A stretch of 14,324 nucleotides of DNA from Candidatus Cloacimonadota bacterium (GTDB taxonomy: Bacteria > Cloacimonadota > Cloacimonadia > Cloacimonadales > TCS61), in assembly GCA_030445745.1 (NCBI GenBank), contig JASUTE010000031.1, positions 1 to 14,324 on the forward strand. Direction: 5' to 3'. Made by a program: the position numbers and the translations under genes. Shown piece after piece: positions 703 to 9,122 of this stretch. Numbering within the stretch: the stretch's first letter is position 1; each line of letters begins with the position of its first letter. A model generated the notes under the pieces. It did no database searches. It saw only the letters and a list, made by a program, of their open reading frames with translations, and was not told the DNA's origin.

Positions 703-3700
703 CTATTTCAACAGCATCATTTTCTTAGTGATAACTTGCTGAGCAGTTTGCAGGCGATATAAGTAAATTCCGCTGGCAACCTGGTTGTTGTTCTCATCGC
801 GTCCATTCCAAATAAAACTATGGTTATCTGCCGCCAGGTTTTTATCTACCAAAGTGCAGATCTTTTGGCCTTTTAGGTTGTAAATGTCAAGCTCTACGTT
901 ACCTGGTTCTTTTAAAGCAAACTCTATAGTGGTTTGCGGATTGAACGGATTGGGATAGTTCTGGTACAGGGTTGTATTGCTAATGGGAATTTGCTGGGGC
1001 TGGTTAGAAACAAACTCTTCACCATCTGTGTAAACAGCTAGGTTCCCATAATTTCTAGCTAACACCAATAATTGACCGTCAATGTTAACCATACCTATTG
1101 GTAGTATGTCTAATGTTTCTGTAGCTACAATATTTCCTTCCAGATCATTTAAAGTAACAGCAAAATCATCCATAGTAAATTTCAAGAGCATTTCTTCGTC
1201 TTCATAATAGTAGTTAGAATAAGCTTGTACAAATTGTTCTCCGCAAACTTTATAAGAATTGGTACTATTACAAAAGGTAAACACTGGGGAATAAAGCTCA
1301 CTCTCGCCATTTATAAATTCTAATTCAGAATCAATTACCTGAAAGCGAAAATCATCATATGGTTGAATATCGCTTCCGTTATGATGTCTTTTCAATATTA
1401 CAATTGAATTTTGATAAAAATGGGCATCCAAACAACTAACAGAGCCCCATGAACCACTATGACCAGGGTCACTCCATTCGTAACTTACGTATTCATAACC
1501 ACTATCTATAAAATCTCCTTCCAAAAATTCGTAATATGTAATTTCCCATTCATTACAAAAGGCTACATAAAGTGAATTTGAATAGGAAAGCAAACCAAAA
1601 TCGTATAATTCTGGATTAGTATAGTCGAAAGTGAATTCCTCATTATTATCTAAATTGGTAAGTGTTAGGGTTTGTTCATCATAATGGGCACGATAATGAG
1701 TGCCGTTGTGTTCGGTTACAAAAAGGTATTCATCGCCAGAAGAAGGTAGTTCTTCCTGATAGAGAATATTGCCCTCTTTTTCCATTATGGTTATAAAAAT
1801 ATAACCAGGTTTTTTAACTGCAATATAGAGGTCATCTTTACCATCGTTGTTGTAGTCTACCAAAGATACTTCTTTTTGGGAATTAGAAATCGATTCATCG
1901 GTGAATGTAATAAAGTATTGCTGATGCAAATCCAAAAATTCTCCAGTTACATGCACTGTTTGGTCATCTGTGTAAGTTAACTCGCCCTCTTCGGTATCAA
2001 GGGTTACACTAATTTGATAATCCCCTGGTTGGGTATAGGTGTAATGTGGATTAGCAGTATTGCTGTCTATTTCACCATCGTTATTAAAATCCCAGCTATA
2101 TTCCTGAATATCATCAAACTCATAAAAAGCGTTTACATAAATAGTTTCACCAGTATTTATTACATAATCGGTAGCTGAAAAACTGGCTCCCTTCACTCGC
2201 AAACAATTATCAAATGTTTCCAAAATTTGCCAATCGAGCCAACCCATGCCCCATTCTTCTGCACCCCAGAATTCACCATTGTAAATTCCAGGTTTATTAA
2301 TCAAGTAACTAGCTCCCCACAAATAAGTTTCTAATTCATAATTTTGATAATGTGTATTAAATAACTTTAGTTTGTAATCTACAAAATATGGGTCATTATA
2401 AGTATGATTAATATCTATTGCTAATGGCATCAAACCTTCACATGGTTCTATGGTAACCCACTGCGAATTGAATTGGATTGTGTTAAGTTCTTGTTCCACA
2501 CTACCTAAATATTCTTCTCCATCATATATTTCTAGAACTACAGTGTAAATGCCTAATTCATCGTAAATATAGTAAAAGTCAGCTCCAACTCCATCAATCT
2601 GACCATCATTATCCACATCCCATTTATATGTATATTCTATATTAGGTTCGTTTACAAAAAAATGGAACTGAGAAAAATTCTCGGGGTCTCTTTCAATTTC
2701 AAAAGGCAGAGTTACCTCTACTAAATCTGGATATGTAATCGTAGCTGGAGGTAAGTTAGGTTGACATATTTGCAAAACTACAGAAAAAGTGCCAACCTGG
2801 TTGTAGGTAAAGCTGAAGACTGTACCACTGCCATCATAATTGCCATCACCATCTGCATCCCAGTTGTACACATATCCTTCTGCTGGTTCATTTATTGAAA
2901 ATTCTACTTCTAAGGGAATAGTACCAGTTGTTTCTGTATATGAAATAATGTCTCCCATAGAAGTTGGATTCAGGTAAGGATAACCATCGTTGTTGGAATA
3001 ATCTTCATCTGCTAACCAAATTTCTCCAAATTCCCAATCAACATAAGTATTTTCTGCATAAGGATAGGTCATTTCCTGGGTGGTTCTAGCTTCGCCCCCA
3101 GCACTTATATTAATTCCAGAACTTTCAGTATCCCAATAACAATTGATAATTGTTGTTTCAGAATCCCATACATCTCCTACTAATCCACCGGCATTATCTG
3201 CCTGATCAGCTACTATAATACCTGTACTATAACACTTATCTATATAAGAACTTTCAAAAACTTCTCCAACTAATCCTCCTATATTAAAAAAACCTGATAT
3301 GCTGCCACGATTAAAACAATTTTCTATAGTATTATTTGATATATTACCTACAATGCCACCAATATAAAAAAATCCAGTAATATCAGCATTGTTAACACAG
3401 TTTTGTATCTGAGAAGAATGAGATAACCCAACTACTCCTCCGACCCAATCTGCACCATTTACTGTACCGCTTACCCGACAATTTATTATAGTTGTATAAT
3501 CTGCCCTTCCTATCAATAGAGCAGTATTACTACTACCTGTAATATTACCTGATTCTAAATTTATATTTGTAATTTCAGCTTCATAAGTAGTTCCAAATAA
3601 ACCGATTTCAGAGCTGCTACTATTACAATAAATGTTACTGATAACAAAATTTCCACCATTATATTTTCCAGTAAAAGGATTACTAGTATCTGCTCCGATT

Positions 3701-3963
3701 GGTTTCCAACCTTGCCCGTTAAACCAATCTTCGGTTTCAGCAGCATCTATATTGGCTGTTTGTATATAGTTAGCTGCCCAGCGTTCTTCCTGCGTAGGTT
3801 CTGGTACTTCATTATTATCCGCTGCTATCCAGTATAAATTCTGCAGGCTGGATATCTGGTAAGGATTTGTTGGTGTACCACTACCAAATTCGGGTGCTGC
3901 TGCCGTTTGAGCACATAAAAAACTTGTGAAAACTAAGATAAATATAAATGGTAAATATTTCAT
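703..3963 (-). CDS. Secreted GLUG/PKD surface protein with sorting domain
   Basis: Predicted 1,086-residue exported protein, probably cell-surface or released. Its ligand is unknown; adhesion or polymer binding is an inference from the modules. An upstream in-frame start at 3999 exists, but I chose ATG at 3963 because GAGGGGAG precedes it and it opens directly on a signal peptide (about residues 1-18, cleavage near LCA/Q; no lipobox). Domains in order: beta-solenoid with four GG[IVL]VG 'GLUG' repeats (about 174, 201, 228, 258); PKD-like domains around 340-420, 420-490 and 600-675, each with a DxDxDG-type acidic loop (369, 449, 625); a repeat-like DYNNDGKDD segment near 703; and a C-terminal domain from about 1000 with YPNPFNP, SGIYLYRL and a basic KKMMLLK tail, typical of type IX secretion or FlgD-like sorting domains. 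No terminator is evident after the stop. Confidence 0.88.
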   Translation of the reverse strand: MKYLPFIFILVFTSFLCAQTAAAPEFGSGTPTNPYQISSLQNLYWIAADNNEVPEPTQEERWAANYIQTANIDAAETEDWFNGQGWKPIGADTSNPFTGKYNGGNFVISNIYCNSSSSEIGLFGTTYEAEITNINLESGNITGSSNTALLIGRADYTTIINCRVSGTVNGADWVGGVVGLSHSSQIQNCVNNADITGFFYIGGIVGNISNNTIENCFNRGSISGFFNIGGLVGEVFESSYIDKCYSTGIIVADQADNAGGLVGDVWDSETTIINCYWDTESSGINISAGGEARTTQEMTYPYAENTYVDWEFGEIWLADEDYSNNDGYPYLNPTSMGDIISYTETTGTIPLEVEFSINEPAEGYVYNWDADGDGNYDGSGTVFSFTYNQVGTFSVVLQICQPNLPPATITYPDLVEVTLPFEIERDPENFSQFHFFVNEPNIEYTYKWDVDNDGQIDGVGADFYYIYDELGIYTVVLEIYDGEEYLGSVEQELNTIQFNSQWVTIEPCEGLMPLAIDINHTYNDPYFVDYKLKLFNTHYQNYELETYLWGASYLINKPGIYNGEFWGAEEWGMGWLDWQILETFDNCLRVKGASFSATDYVINTGETIYVNAFYEFDDIQEYSWDFNNDGEIDSNTANPHYTYTQPGDYQISVTLDTEEGELTYTDDQTVHVTGEFLDLHQQYFITFTDESISNSQKEVSLVDYNNDGKDDLYIAVKKPGYIFITIMEKEGNILYQEELPSSGDEYLFVTEHNGTHYRAHYDEQTLTLTNLDNNEEFTFDYTNPELYDFGLLSYSNSLYVAFCNEWEITYYEFLEGDFIDSGYEYVSYEWSDPGHSGSWGSVSCLDAHFYQNSIVILKRHHNGSDIQPYDDFRFQVIDSELEFINGESELYSPVFTFCNSTNSYKVCGEQFVQAYSNYYYEDEEMLLKFTMDDFAVTLNDLEGNIVATETLDILPIGMVNIDGQLLVLARNYGNLAVYTDGEEFVSNQPQQIPISNTTLYQNYPNPFNPQTTIEFALKEPGNVELDIYNLKGQKICTLVDKNLAADNHSFIWNGRDENNNQVASGIYLYRLQTAQQVITKKMMLLK

Positions 3964-6290: not shown

Positions 6291-8768
6291 CTATTTCGCT
6301 ACGATACTCACCAATTTTTGGGGAACAACGATAATTTTTTTAATATCTTTGCCTTCTAAATGTTTTTGTACATTTTCCTGAGCTAAAGCTTCTTTTTTAA
6401 TAGCTTCTTGGTCAGCCTCGGCACTTATTTCAAAGCTACCACGAATTTTTCCCATTATCTGCACCACATAGGTTATCTCATCTTTTTTTAGGAACTCTTT
6501 TGTATAAGTAGGAAGCCCTGCCGTGTGCAGCATACCATCCTGGCCGCTCATTTGCCACAATTCTTCCGCGATATGCGGAGCAAAGAAGTGCAACAGACGC
6601 GGCATTATAAGGCATGCTTCAGCAAAAACAGCTTTATCGGCATTGCTTAGTTTTGCCACATTTTTTACTGCATACACATTGTTCAAATGTTCCATAATTG
6701 CGGCAATGGCTGTATTGAACTGCATTCTATTTTCAATATCTTCGATAACTTTTTTAATGGTAAAGTGTGAGCTATAACGCAGTTTTTTCAGTTGGGAACT
6801 TACGTTGCCATCCACTGGTTTACCGGCAAATTCCTTAATAACATCGATATTTTCCTGGAAAATGCGCCAAACACGGTTCAGAAAACGAAAACTTCCCTTA
6901 ACCCCTTCATCACTCCATTCCACATCTTTTTCTGGTGGAGAGGCAAACAACATGAAAACTCGCACCGTATCAGCGCCATAACGATCGATAATATACTGTG
7001 GGTCTACCACATTTCCCTTGGATTTACTCATCTTAGCACCATCTTTGGTTACCATACCCTGGGTAAGCAAACGAGCAAATGGCTCATCGCTATTCACCAT
7101 ACCTATATCGCGCATGAATTTATGGAAAAAGCGCGCATACAGCAGATGCATACAAGCATGTTCGATGCCGCCAATATACTGATCGACTGGTAGCCAGTAA
7201 TCAGCATTTTCTTTACTGAAAGGTAGCGCGGCATTGTGAGCATCGGTGTAGCGCGCAAAATACCAGGAACTATCTACGAAAGTATCCATGGTATCTGTTT
7301 CGCGGCGAGCTGGCCTACCACATTTAGGGCAAGTGGTATTTACCCACTCTTTCACGCTTAGTAGCGGATTTTGACGAGTTTTGCCAACTTCTACATTATC
7401 CGGAAGTTCAACCGGCAGGTCTGCATCGGGAACCAGAACGGTTCCGCATTTTTCACAGTAGATAACTGGAATAGGATTTCCCCAATAACGCTGACGGGAA
7501 ACTCCCCAGTCGCGCAGACGATAGGTAACAGTTTGGGTAGCTATACCTTCTGCTTCCATCCACTGGGAAATAGCTTTCTGAGATTTCACACTTCCCATCC
7601 CATCGAATTTGCCTGAGTTAACCAACACGCCTGATTCCACATAAGCTGCGGTCATCTCTTCCAAAACCAGGTTTTGTTCCGGGTTTTGAATAACCAATTT
7701 AAAGGGGATATCATATTTTTTGGCAAAATCAAAATCGCGCTGGTCGTGAGCTGGAACCGCCATCACAGCTCCTGTACCGTAATCCATAAGCACATAATTG
7801 GTAATCCATATCTGCACTTTTTCACCATTTACTGGGTTTATGGCAAAACGTCCGCTAAAAATACCCTCTTTGGTTGTATCGTCGGCGGTACGCAGTAATT
7901 TATCCTCGTTCATCACTTTATCACAGAACTGGCGCATCTTGGAATCTGCTGCTTCCGATTTTAACCATTTTCCTACCAAAGGATGCTCTGGCGGCAAAGC
8001 CATAAAAGTACAGCCAAAGATAGTATCGGGGCGAGTGGTGAAAACTTCAATAATTTCATCACTGTTTTCCAATTTGAAGAAAATATTGGTACCTTCGCTG
8101 CGTCCAATCCAGTTTTTTTGCATGGTTATAACTTTTTCAGGCCAATCTATTACCTTGGAAAAATCCAGTAACTCTTCAGCGTAATCGGTAATTTTGAAGA
8201 ACCATTGTTCCAATTCTTTTTGTCTTACTGGGCTATTGCAACGCCAGCATTTACCATCTTCCACCTGTTCGTTCGCCAGCACGGTTTGACATTCATCACA
8301 CCAGTTCACAAAGCTAGATTTTTTATAAGCCAGTCCTTTTTCGTACATTCGTTTGAACAACCACTGTCCCCATTTGTAGTAATCGGGACGGCAGGTACTA
8401 ACTTCTCTATCCCAATCCAAACCAAATCCCATTGCATCGAATTGTTTACGCATATGCTCGATATTTTCTTCGGTAGTAATACGCGGGTGAGAATTATGTT
8501 CTATCGCATAATTTTCGGCTGGCATGCCAAAAGAATCGTAGCCCATGGGCTGCATCACGTTGAAGCCCTGGGTAAGTTTATAGCGGGTGATGGCATCAGC
8601 AATGGAATAGTTGGAAACATGACCCATATGCAATTTCCCAGATGGGTAGGGAAACATGGAAAGGATGTAGTACTTCTTCTGGTCTGTCTTGTTGGAAGCT
8701 CGGAAAATACCTTCATCATTCCATTTCTGCTGCCATTTTTTCTCTATCTTATCAAAAGGATATTCCAT
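6291..8768 (-). CDS. leuS: Leucyl-tRNA synthetase
   Basis: Class I aminoacyl-tRNA synthetase charging tRNA-Leu with leucine in the cytoplasm; 825 residues, normal for the bacterial type. The HIGH motif is HMGH (47-50) after YPSGKL, and the KMSKS loop is at 579-583. A zinc-ribbon Cys set lies at 157, 160, 174 and 177, and a second at 438, 441, 480 and 483. The CP1 editing domain shows TTRPDT (244-249) and GTGAVMAVPAHDQRD (331-345), so proofreading of non-cognate amino acids should be intact. ATG 8768 follows AGGAG by eight bases. It lies alone on the minus strand, converging on the kinase gene with a terminator between. Its leader contains a leucine-rich small ORF and a strong promoter-like sequence (separate entries). 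No T-box sequence is visible. Confidence 0.98.
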   Translation of the reverse strand: MEYPFDKIEKKWQQKWNDEGIFRASNKTDQKKYYILSMFPYPSGKLHMGHVSNYSIADAITRYKLTQGFNVMQPMGYDSFGMPAENYAIEHNSHPRITTEENIEHMRKQFDAMGFGLDWDREVSTCRPDYYKWGQWLFKRMYEKGLAYKKSSFVNWCDECQTVLANEQVEDGKCWRCNSPVRQKELEQWFFKITDYAEELLDFSKVIDWPEKVITMQKNWIGRSEGTNIFFKLENSDEIIEVFTTRPDTIFGCTFMALPPEHPLVGKWLKSEAADSKMRQFCDKVMNEDKLLRTADDTTKEGIFSGRFAINPVNGEKVQIWITNYVLMDYGTGAVMAVPAHDQRDFDFAKKYDIPFKLVIQNPEQNLVLEEMTAAYVESGVLVNSGKFDGMGSVKSQKAISQWMEAEGIATQTVTYRLRDWGVSRQRYWGNPIPVIYCEKCGTVLVPDADLPVELPDNVEVGKTRQNPLLSVKEWVNTTCPKCGRPARRETDTMDTFVDSSWYFARYTDAHNAALPFSKENADYWLPVDQYIGGIEHACMHLLYARFFHKFMRDIGMVNSDEPFARLLTQGMVTKDGAKMSKSKGNVVDPQYIIDRYGADTVRVFMLFASPPEKDVEWSDEGVKGSFRFLNRVWRIFQENIDVIKEFAGKPVDGNVSSQLKKLRYSSHFTIKKVIEDIENRMQFNTAIAAIMEHLNNVYAVKNVAKLSNADKAVFAEACLIMPRLLHFFAPHIAEELWQMSGQDGMLHTAGLPTYTKEFLKKDEITYVVQIMGKIRGSFEISAEADQEAIKKEALAQENVQKHLEGKDIKKIIVVPQKLVSIVAK

Positions 8769-8781
8769 TCTTAAAACTCCT

Positions 8782-8810
8782 ATTATATTTTTTTAGAAAT
8801 GTACTGTAAA
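8782..8810 (-). promoter_or_regulatory. Strong promoter-like sequence just before leuS
   Basis: On the minus strand TTTACA (8805-8810) and a perfect TATAAT (8782-8787) are 17 bases apart. The expected start, about seven bases past the -10, is near 8775, only a few bases before the leuS ATG at 8768 and beyond most of the AGGAG site (8777-8781). A transcript from here would be nearly leaderless. It is either a second promoter or a chance match in AT-rich DNA; it competes with the leader-peptide model. Confidence 0.4.
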
Positions 8811-8812
8811 TT

Positions 8813-8893
8813 CTATCCCCAAAAGGGGAGTAAAAGCAGAAGAGTACGGCCGGAATGGTCTCTTACAATTTTATGTAGAAAATTAACAGCCAT
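8813..8893 (-). CDS. Putative leucine-rich leader peptide upstream of leuS
   Basis: A 26-codon ORF on the same strand as leuS, too short for routine ORF calling. ATG at 8893 is preceded by AAGGA seven bases upstream, one of the better ribosome-binding sites here. Residues 18-22 are five consecutive leucines encoded CTT CTG CTT TTA CTC (about 8828-8842), followed by PFWG and TAG, 44 bases before the leuS ATG. Leader peptides rich in the cognate amino acid control amino-acid biosynthesis and some synthetase genes (leuL, pheM). The last codons also form a TCCCC-TTTT-GGGGA hairpin, and ACTCC there could pair with GGAGT at the leuS ribosome-binding site. No classical terminator fits in the 44-base gap. 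A coding role is inferred from position and Leu content. Confidence 0.5.
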   Translation of the reverse strand: MAVNFLHKIVRDHSGRTLLLLLPFWG

Positions 8894-9092
8894 TTTCTCT
8901 TCCTTTCTTATTTATTTTCAGTTGGTTGCCAGTTTTGTAGGAAACCTTTTTCGGTCAAATATTTTTTGGAAAGATAATCCAATTAAAACAGCCCAGATAG
9001 TAAATCCACCCGCGCTATATTCCGAGATTGTTTTTTATCTCATATCCTTCCTTCTACAATTGTTCAGGTATCTATTTTAGGAAATTTAAAAA
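8894..9092. other. Intergenic stretch upstream of the leuS leader
   Basis: About 200 bases between the lon terminator and the leader ORF. A minus-strand TTGACC occurs near 8952-8957, but no good -10 lies at 16-18 bases. No RNA gene or convincing coding sequence is seen on either strand. The promoter driving the leuS leader, if it exists, should be here, but I cannot place it. Confidence 0.4.
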
Positions 9093-9122
9093 AGCTGTTC
9101 CAAGAAAGATCCTGAAACAGCT
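9087..9122 (-). terminator. Rho-independent terminator of lon
   Basis: On the minus strand AGCTGTTTCA pairs with TGGAACAGCT (9 of 10 bp, one A-C mismatch) around a 10-base loop, spanning 9093-9122. TTTTTT follows directly. It begins about 18 bases after the lon stop, so lon and leuS should be separate transcription units. Confidence 0.8.

Follow-up and report, generated by a model that had tools for sequence, protein, structure and literature searches.

The enterobacterial leader peptides leuL, ilvL and pheM work by way of intrinsic terminators, ermC-type translational attenuation relies on drug-dependent stalling and is defined by masking of the downstream Shine-Dalgarno (SD) sequence, and T-box leaders regulate synthetase genes by tRNA charging. 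For Streptomyces coelicolor and S. avermitilis, Seliverstov et al. (2005, PMC1262725) predicted candidate attenuators of leuS, and evidence is cited in the same paper that mutation of the leucine codons in the LEU element, located at leuA in Actinobacteria, left regulation unaffected (PMC1262725). Regulation in Cloacimonadota, which are uncultured anaerobes, is hardly known.

The window, the whole stretch of 14,324 nt that was analysed, is one contig of a Cloacimonadota MAG with an assembly size of 2.04 Mb. The leuS gene at 8768..6291 on the minus strand encodes a leucyl-tRNA synthetase of 825 residues with 66–77% identity to the orthologues across the order, and its closest named relatives are found in Cloacimonadota, namely TCS62, Candidatus Stygibacter and 'Candidatus Cloacimonas sp. 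SDB'. Upstream, on the same strand as are all parts of the leader given below, lies a short ORF of 26 codons followed by TAG (8893..8813), the translation of which is MAVNFLHKIVRDHSGRTLLLLLPFWG. It is served by the SD sequence AGGAAGAG (8904..8897), and its stop codon is followed by a spacer of 44 nt before the leuS ATG at 8768. Five consecutive leucine codons, CTT CTG CTT TTA CTC, are located at 8842..8828. Leucine accounts for 8.5% of the codons in the window genes, at which frequency a run of five is expected by chance about 1e-4 times per ORF, and no other of the 441 start-codon frames of 12–45 codons in the window has such a run. The window also encodes a large secreted protein (703–3960, minus strand) with PKD-like repeats and a C-terminal sorting-type domain of the YPNPFNPxT kind.

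The regions upstream of leuS were compared in 51 genomes of the order and in the genome of the window itself. A counterpart of the leader precedes leuS in 34 genomes from 18 genera, comprising 32 of the 33 readable family members together with G037 and G041, one each from two other families, and it is absent from the leuS upstream regions of 17 genomes from other families. G002, the sole genome without the leader among the readable family members, has a TTGAC box 57 nt before leuS, a state consistent with a clean loss of the leader. An in-frame ATG with an SD sequence is found in frame 0 in 32 of the 34 genomes and in frames 1 and 2 in none (genus-level Fisher p 4e-13), and at least 20 open codons precede the CTC codon in frame 0 in 34/34 genomes, as compared to 11/34 and 13/34 for the two alternative frames. 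This conservation of start, SD and openness in a single frame is the decisive evidence that the leader ORF is real. The N-terminal body of the peptide cannot be aligned between genera and the end of the peptide is kept.

Judged from the genomes searched, the element is specific to leuS. In the family the pattern TTACTCCCCT-N1-5-GGGGA is limited at leuS to a single site per genome, and a covariance model built on the 3' end of the leader matches 27 of 124 genomes of the phylum, with a single site in each and always at leuS. The ileS upstream regions of the family hold no conserved counterpart, and among 60 leuS loci of other phyla there is no SD-bearing ORF with four or more consecutive leucine codons. 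Matches to the pattern of the 3' hairpin (P2, see below) elsewhere in the window genome were rejected as leaders, being either an interspersed palindromic repeat or chance matches, and an additional motif match in G104 is located before valS and is unrelated; valS of the window genome directly follows another gene. The window genome carries seven or more copies of the repeat, CTCCCCTTTTAAGGGGA with a shared element (GAAGCTCTGCCCTAGTGGAATCGGCAAAGCCGGCAGCATAGCTGCATTCC...) behind it (loci L136, L138, L140, L144, L146, L148 and L150 in G000). A short ORF, MNKKDNFISKWEAAFFTRGLILCLRYNYIVV, with hairpin-like repeats lies 134 to 41 nt before ileS (L006, G000:C4) and is not conserved in relatives.

The end of the leader has a common pattern, (L)LL-P followed by the near-invariant CUUUUACUCCCC and then by hairpin P2. 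All 34 leaders have Leu-Leu near the end, mostly within a series of three to five leucines and often as HLLLLP, and the Leu-Leu pair is always followed by proline except in G007, where Leu-Leu-Leu-Val is found and the peptide ends LLLLV. In the run of the window, the last two positions are the universal ones. Codon -1 is CTC in every leader, codon -2 is leucine in all 18 genera by way of TTA, TTG or CTG, and codon -4 varies between CTT, CTC, CTG and CTA. CTC is the rarest leucine codon of the window genes, with 7 out of 340 in what is a small sample. Merely two adjacent leucine codons are left at the end in G017, G037, G004, G026 and G003, which is few for a sensor, and the conservation of the leucine codons may in part serve pairing within the RNA instead of decoding. 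A TnaC-like arrest peptide ending in LLP-stop was rejected as a general reading, as many members run past the proline (PFWG, PLRG) and G007 has LLLLV. The class II tRNA genes that were examined have the leucine anticodons UAG, AAG, UAA, CAA and CAG; GAG was not seen in them. The locus L212 (G000:C4:15986-16071) is a tRNA-Leu with anticodon AAG, which is unusual in bacteria, and with GAG not seen and AAG present the CUC and CUU codons of the leader are therefore probably read by an A34/I34 tRNA.

A promoter-like -35 box, TTGACC (8958..8953), probably marks the start of the leuS transcription unit, and the sequence AAAACTGGCAA (8936..8926), which is conserved and follows the TTGAC box at a distance of about 17 nt, is its probable -10 region; a TTTCAAAACTGGCAA-like or CAAAACTGGCAA-like block recurs at this place in the family. 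The TTGAC box is located 52–65 nt before the leader ATG in 33 of the 34 leader genomes, for 15 of the 18 relatives without a leader it is instead found 53–113 nt before leuS itself, and in no genome is there a TTGAC box between leader and leuS. Since the box precedes the leader, or leuS itself where the leader is missing, the ORF is very probably part of the leuS transcript, and most likely its first item. A σ70-like TTTACA-17-TATAAT in the spacer (8810–8782) was discarded as an alternative start, with two such sites found and 2.1 expected by chance. The upstream lon gene ends in a terminator-like hairpin (9122..9093). Between this hairpin and the leader promoter (9062–8922, minus strand) there is a strong SD with ATG AGA TAA, followed by the open stretch KTISEYSAGGFTIWAVLIGLSFQKIFDRKRFPTKLATN, which could be a decayed gene for a small membrane protein.

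The original prediction had described a 26-codon ORF with a strong ribosomal binding site, five consecutive leucine codons and a distance of 44 nt to leuS, all of which were confirmed in the window, and had assigned it to leuS, an assignment borne out by the conservation of the leader in the family and by the conserved promoter-like box in front of it. The alignment of related leuS upstream regions that it had proposed gave a conserved ORF, a leucine run and synonymous changes, and the transcript start downstream of 8813 that would have spoken against it is not indicated, as the predicted box precedes the leader and none follows.

Two helices are predicted in the leader RNA. The short one, P2, is a UCCCC-UUUU-GGGGA hairpin (8829..8816) that abuts both the last leucine codon and the longer helix. 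A UCCCC-loop-GGGGA stem is found in all 34 leaders with loops of about 3–5 nt that vary, with no anticodon or other sequence conserved in them, in G007 it is maintained by a compensated C-to-U/G-to-A change (CTCCTC/GAGGAG), and in roughly half of the genomes the stop codon comes before its 3' strand. An Rfam scan gave nothing at the gathering score and just chance-level matches at E<=5. The longer helix, P1, which is new here, would pair the segment with the leucine codons (8852..8831) with the SD and start codon region of the leader itself (8910..8887), with 19 pairs predicted for the window; the leader from 8918 to 8810 folds at -34.1 kcal/mol (z -4.6). This predicted pairing to the leader's own ribosomal binding site is supported statistically by swap and shuffle tests. 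Native arms form a duplex of -12.8 kcal/mol as compared to -9.5 kcal/mol for swaps across genera (p 2.5e-6, per genus p 8e-4), they also pair better than synonymous-codon randomisations, and in the shuffle test the signal is seen at the leader binding site only, with z -1.45 +/- 0.38 versus -0.50 +/- 0.21 at the SD of leuS. P1 is not apparent in all genomes, with little of it in G001, G003 and G041, the whole-leader folding z is modest on average (-1.28 per genus), and in a covariation count the arms are nearly invariant within one clade.

The reading we prefer, with a probability of roughly 0.6, is that the leader is a cis-acting leader-peptide element of leuS in which the position of the ribosome on the leucine codons opens or closes P1 and P2. 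Transcription would start about 20–25 nt before the leader ATG, and a ribosome would load while the binding site of the leader is still free and translate toward the leucine codons. The universal Leu-Leu codons are placed just before P2, and the ribosome must therefore melt this hairpin while decoding them. With ample Leu-tRNA it should run through, stop in or just behind P2 and leave, whereupon the leucine-codon segment and the leader binding site would form P1, P2 would form again, and the 5' end would be closed. With scarce Leu-tRNA it should wait on the leucine codons, both helices would be blocked, and leuS expression would rise. The direction of this effect is taken from physiology, by which stalling at the leucine codons most likely raises leuS expression. 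A leuA gene above the family cut-off was found in 1 of 39 family genomes and none was found in that of the window, so family members probably scavenge their leucine. For the output step we favour an effect on translation or on the stability of leuS mRNA over Rho-dependent termination, which comes second. A wider proposal, that this is a terminator-less switch of a distinct kind for tRNA-charging control, evolved within Cloacimonadota, with regulatory codons that pair over a long range with the leader's own binding site beside a second hairpin and a 5' end of the synthetase mRNA that would be opened or closed by where the ribosome stands on them, is put forward tentatively and is possible rather than probable.

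It is also conceivable, if unlikely, that it is mainly the RNA structure of P1 and P2 that is conserved, shielding the 5' end or limiting translation of the leader, perhaps bound by LeuRS or another protein, and that the leucine codons are largely a by-product of a pyrimidine-rich strand that pairs with the SD. The P1 pairing persists in G024, G037, G004 and G026 in spite of lost leucine codons, so pairing of the RNA must have been selected too, CUUUUACUCCCC is conserved at the nucleotide level, and P2 is conserved though its GGGG is often outside the ORF. Against this reading, frame, start and SD are kept in all genera and solely in frame 0, the changes at codon -2 are all synonymous (TTA/TTG/CTG), four different leucine codons are used at -4, and the P2 loop lacks a conserved sequence of the anticodon type.

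In translational attenuation resembling that of ermC or the LEU element, the leucine run would be an anti-SD for leuS and a stalled ribosome would free the SD of leuS (AGGAG, 8781..8777), which lies in the spacer at 8812..8769. With a ribosome modelled on the leucine codons the mean accessibility of this SD goes from 0.31 to 0.48 (per-genus p 0.001), a result that also speaks for the preferred reading. The modelled pairing between the run and this SD is close to 1 in G006, G012, G020 and G027 and rises to an average of 0.32 with the ribosome at the leader start, native pairing is slightly better than that of swaps (p 0.004), and a pairing of this type exists in the actinobacterial LEU element. 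In the window genome, however, the pairing probability is 0.0 and the accessibility barely shifts between ribosome states, from 0.12 to 0.16, as the SD is paired locally; this weighs on the preferred reading too, and masking of the SD is probably not how the element works in general. The pairing is absent in about two thirds of the other genomes as well, the shuffle control at the leuS SD is weak (z -0.50), and the spacer varies from 46 to 224 nt in length, all of which makes this a rather improbable explanation.

Rho-dependent termination governed by translation of the leader is less probable still. Rho is present, and the spacer is unstructured with more C than G (14% versus 7%, median ratio 2.7), but it is also short, with a median of 57 nt to the leuS ATG, and rich in A (50%), and leuS would already be under translation by the time Rho could act.

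Classical transcription attenuation, with an intrinsic terminator of the type used by leuL and pheM and by the leuS attenuators predicted for Streptomyces, would fit a leader peptide whose cognate codons precede a synthetase gene, and is already contradicted by the sequence to the point of being very improbable. The spacer of the window is A-rich, G-poor and without terminator, no terminator-like site is located between leader and leuS in any of the 34 genomes, that of the window included, and the stem of P2 has about 5 bp and is not followed by a U-tract. Attenuation as defined for leuL and pheM is therefore ruled out, and for want of a terminator there is no mutually exclusive antiterminator/terminator pair. 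The analogy to leuL and pheM in the original prediction thus fails for lack of a terminator in the 34 genomes, and several leaders keep only two or three leucine codons yet have the pairing to the ribosomal binding site. Its remark that no leucine leader of leuS was known in this lineage agrees with our literature search, which found none for Cloacimonadota, and has to be seen beside the candidates predicted for Streptomyces in 2005 (PMC1262725). That the ORF encodes a functional small protein is hardly credible with an unalignable N-terminal part and changes within genera that are spread over the three codon positions (36–55 each), and a chance ORF is excluded by the conservation and by the ATG and SD in frame 0.

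The leader offers an example of a leader-peptide design without a terminator, and as an element of leuS only, found throughout a family, it gives a testable model of how probable leucine scavengers tune their synthetase to the leucine supply. The 34 natural variants make a defined case for separating codon-dependent from structure-dependent control, and regulatory codons that pair with a ribosomal binding site would, if true, constitute a distinct architecture for tRNA-charging control.

Compared with known systems, the locus has the features of a cognate-codon leader, namely a short SD-bearing ORF upstream, a shared transcript as predicted from the position of the promoter, and leucine codons near the end. 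With leuL, ilvL and pheM it shares a leader peptide of cognate codons before a biosynthetic or synthetase operon, whereas their intrinsic terminators have no equivalent here. With ermC it shares a leader ORF, alternative pairings and the lack of a terminator, but the masking of the downstream SD that defines ermC is seen in a minority of the genomes. The proposed regulation of a synthetase gene by tRNA charging is also that of T-box leaders; the T-box covariance model, however, has no match in the window at the gathering score or at E<=5. The predicted leuS attenuators of Streptomyces likewise place leucine codons in a leader ORF immediately before leuS, but with antiterminator and terminator hairpins and a poly-U tract (PMC1262725), all missing in the Cloacimonadota leader, where P1 would form on its own binding site. 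The LEU element is similar in having a leader ORF with a leucine run that pairs with an SD and no terminator, but its run pairs with the SD of leuA, the gene under control, and a pseudoknot is conserved (PMC1262725), whereas in Cloacimonadota the predicted pairing is mainly with the SD of the leader itself and the gene is leuS. The leader upstream of leuS in Cloacimonadota is thus of the leader-peptide kind without the usual terminator, and we take it for a new variant.
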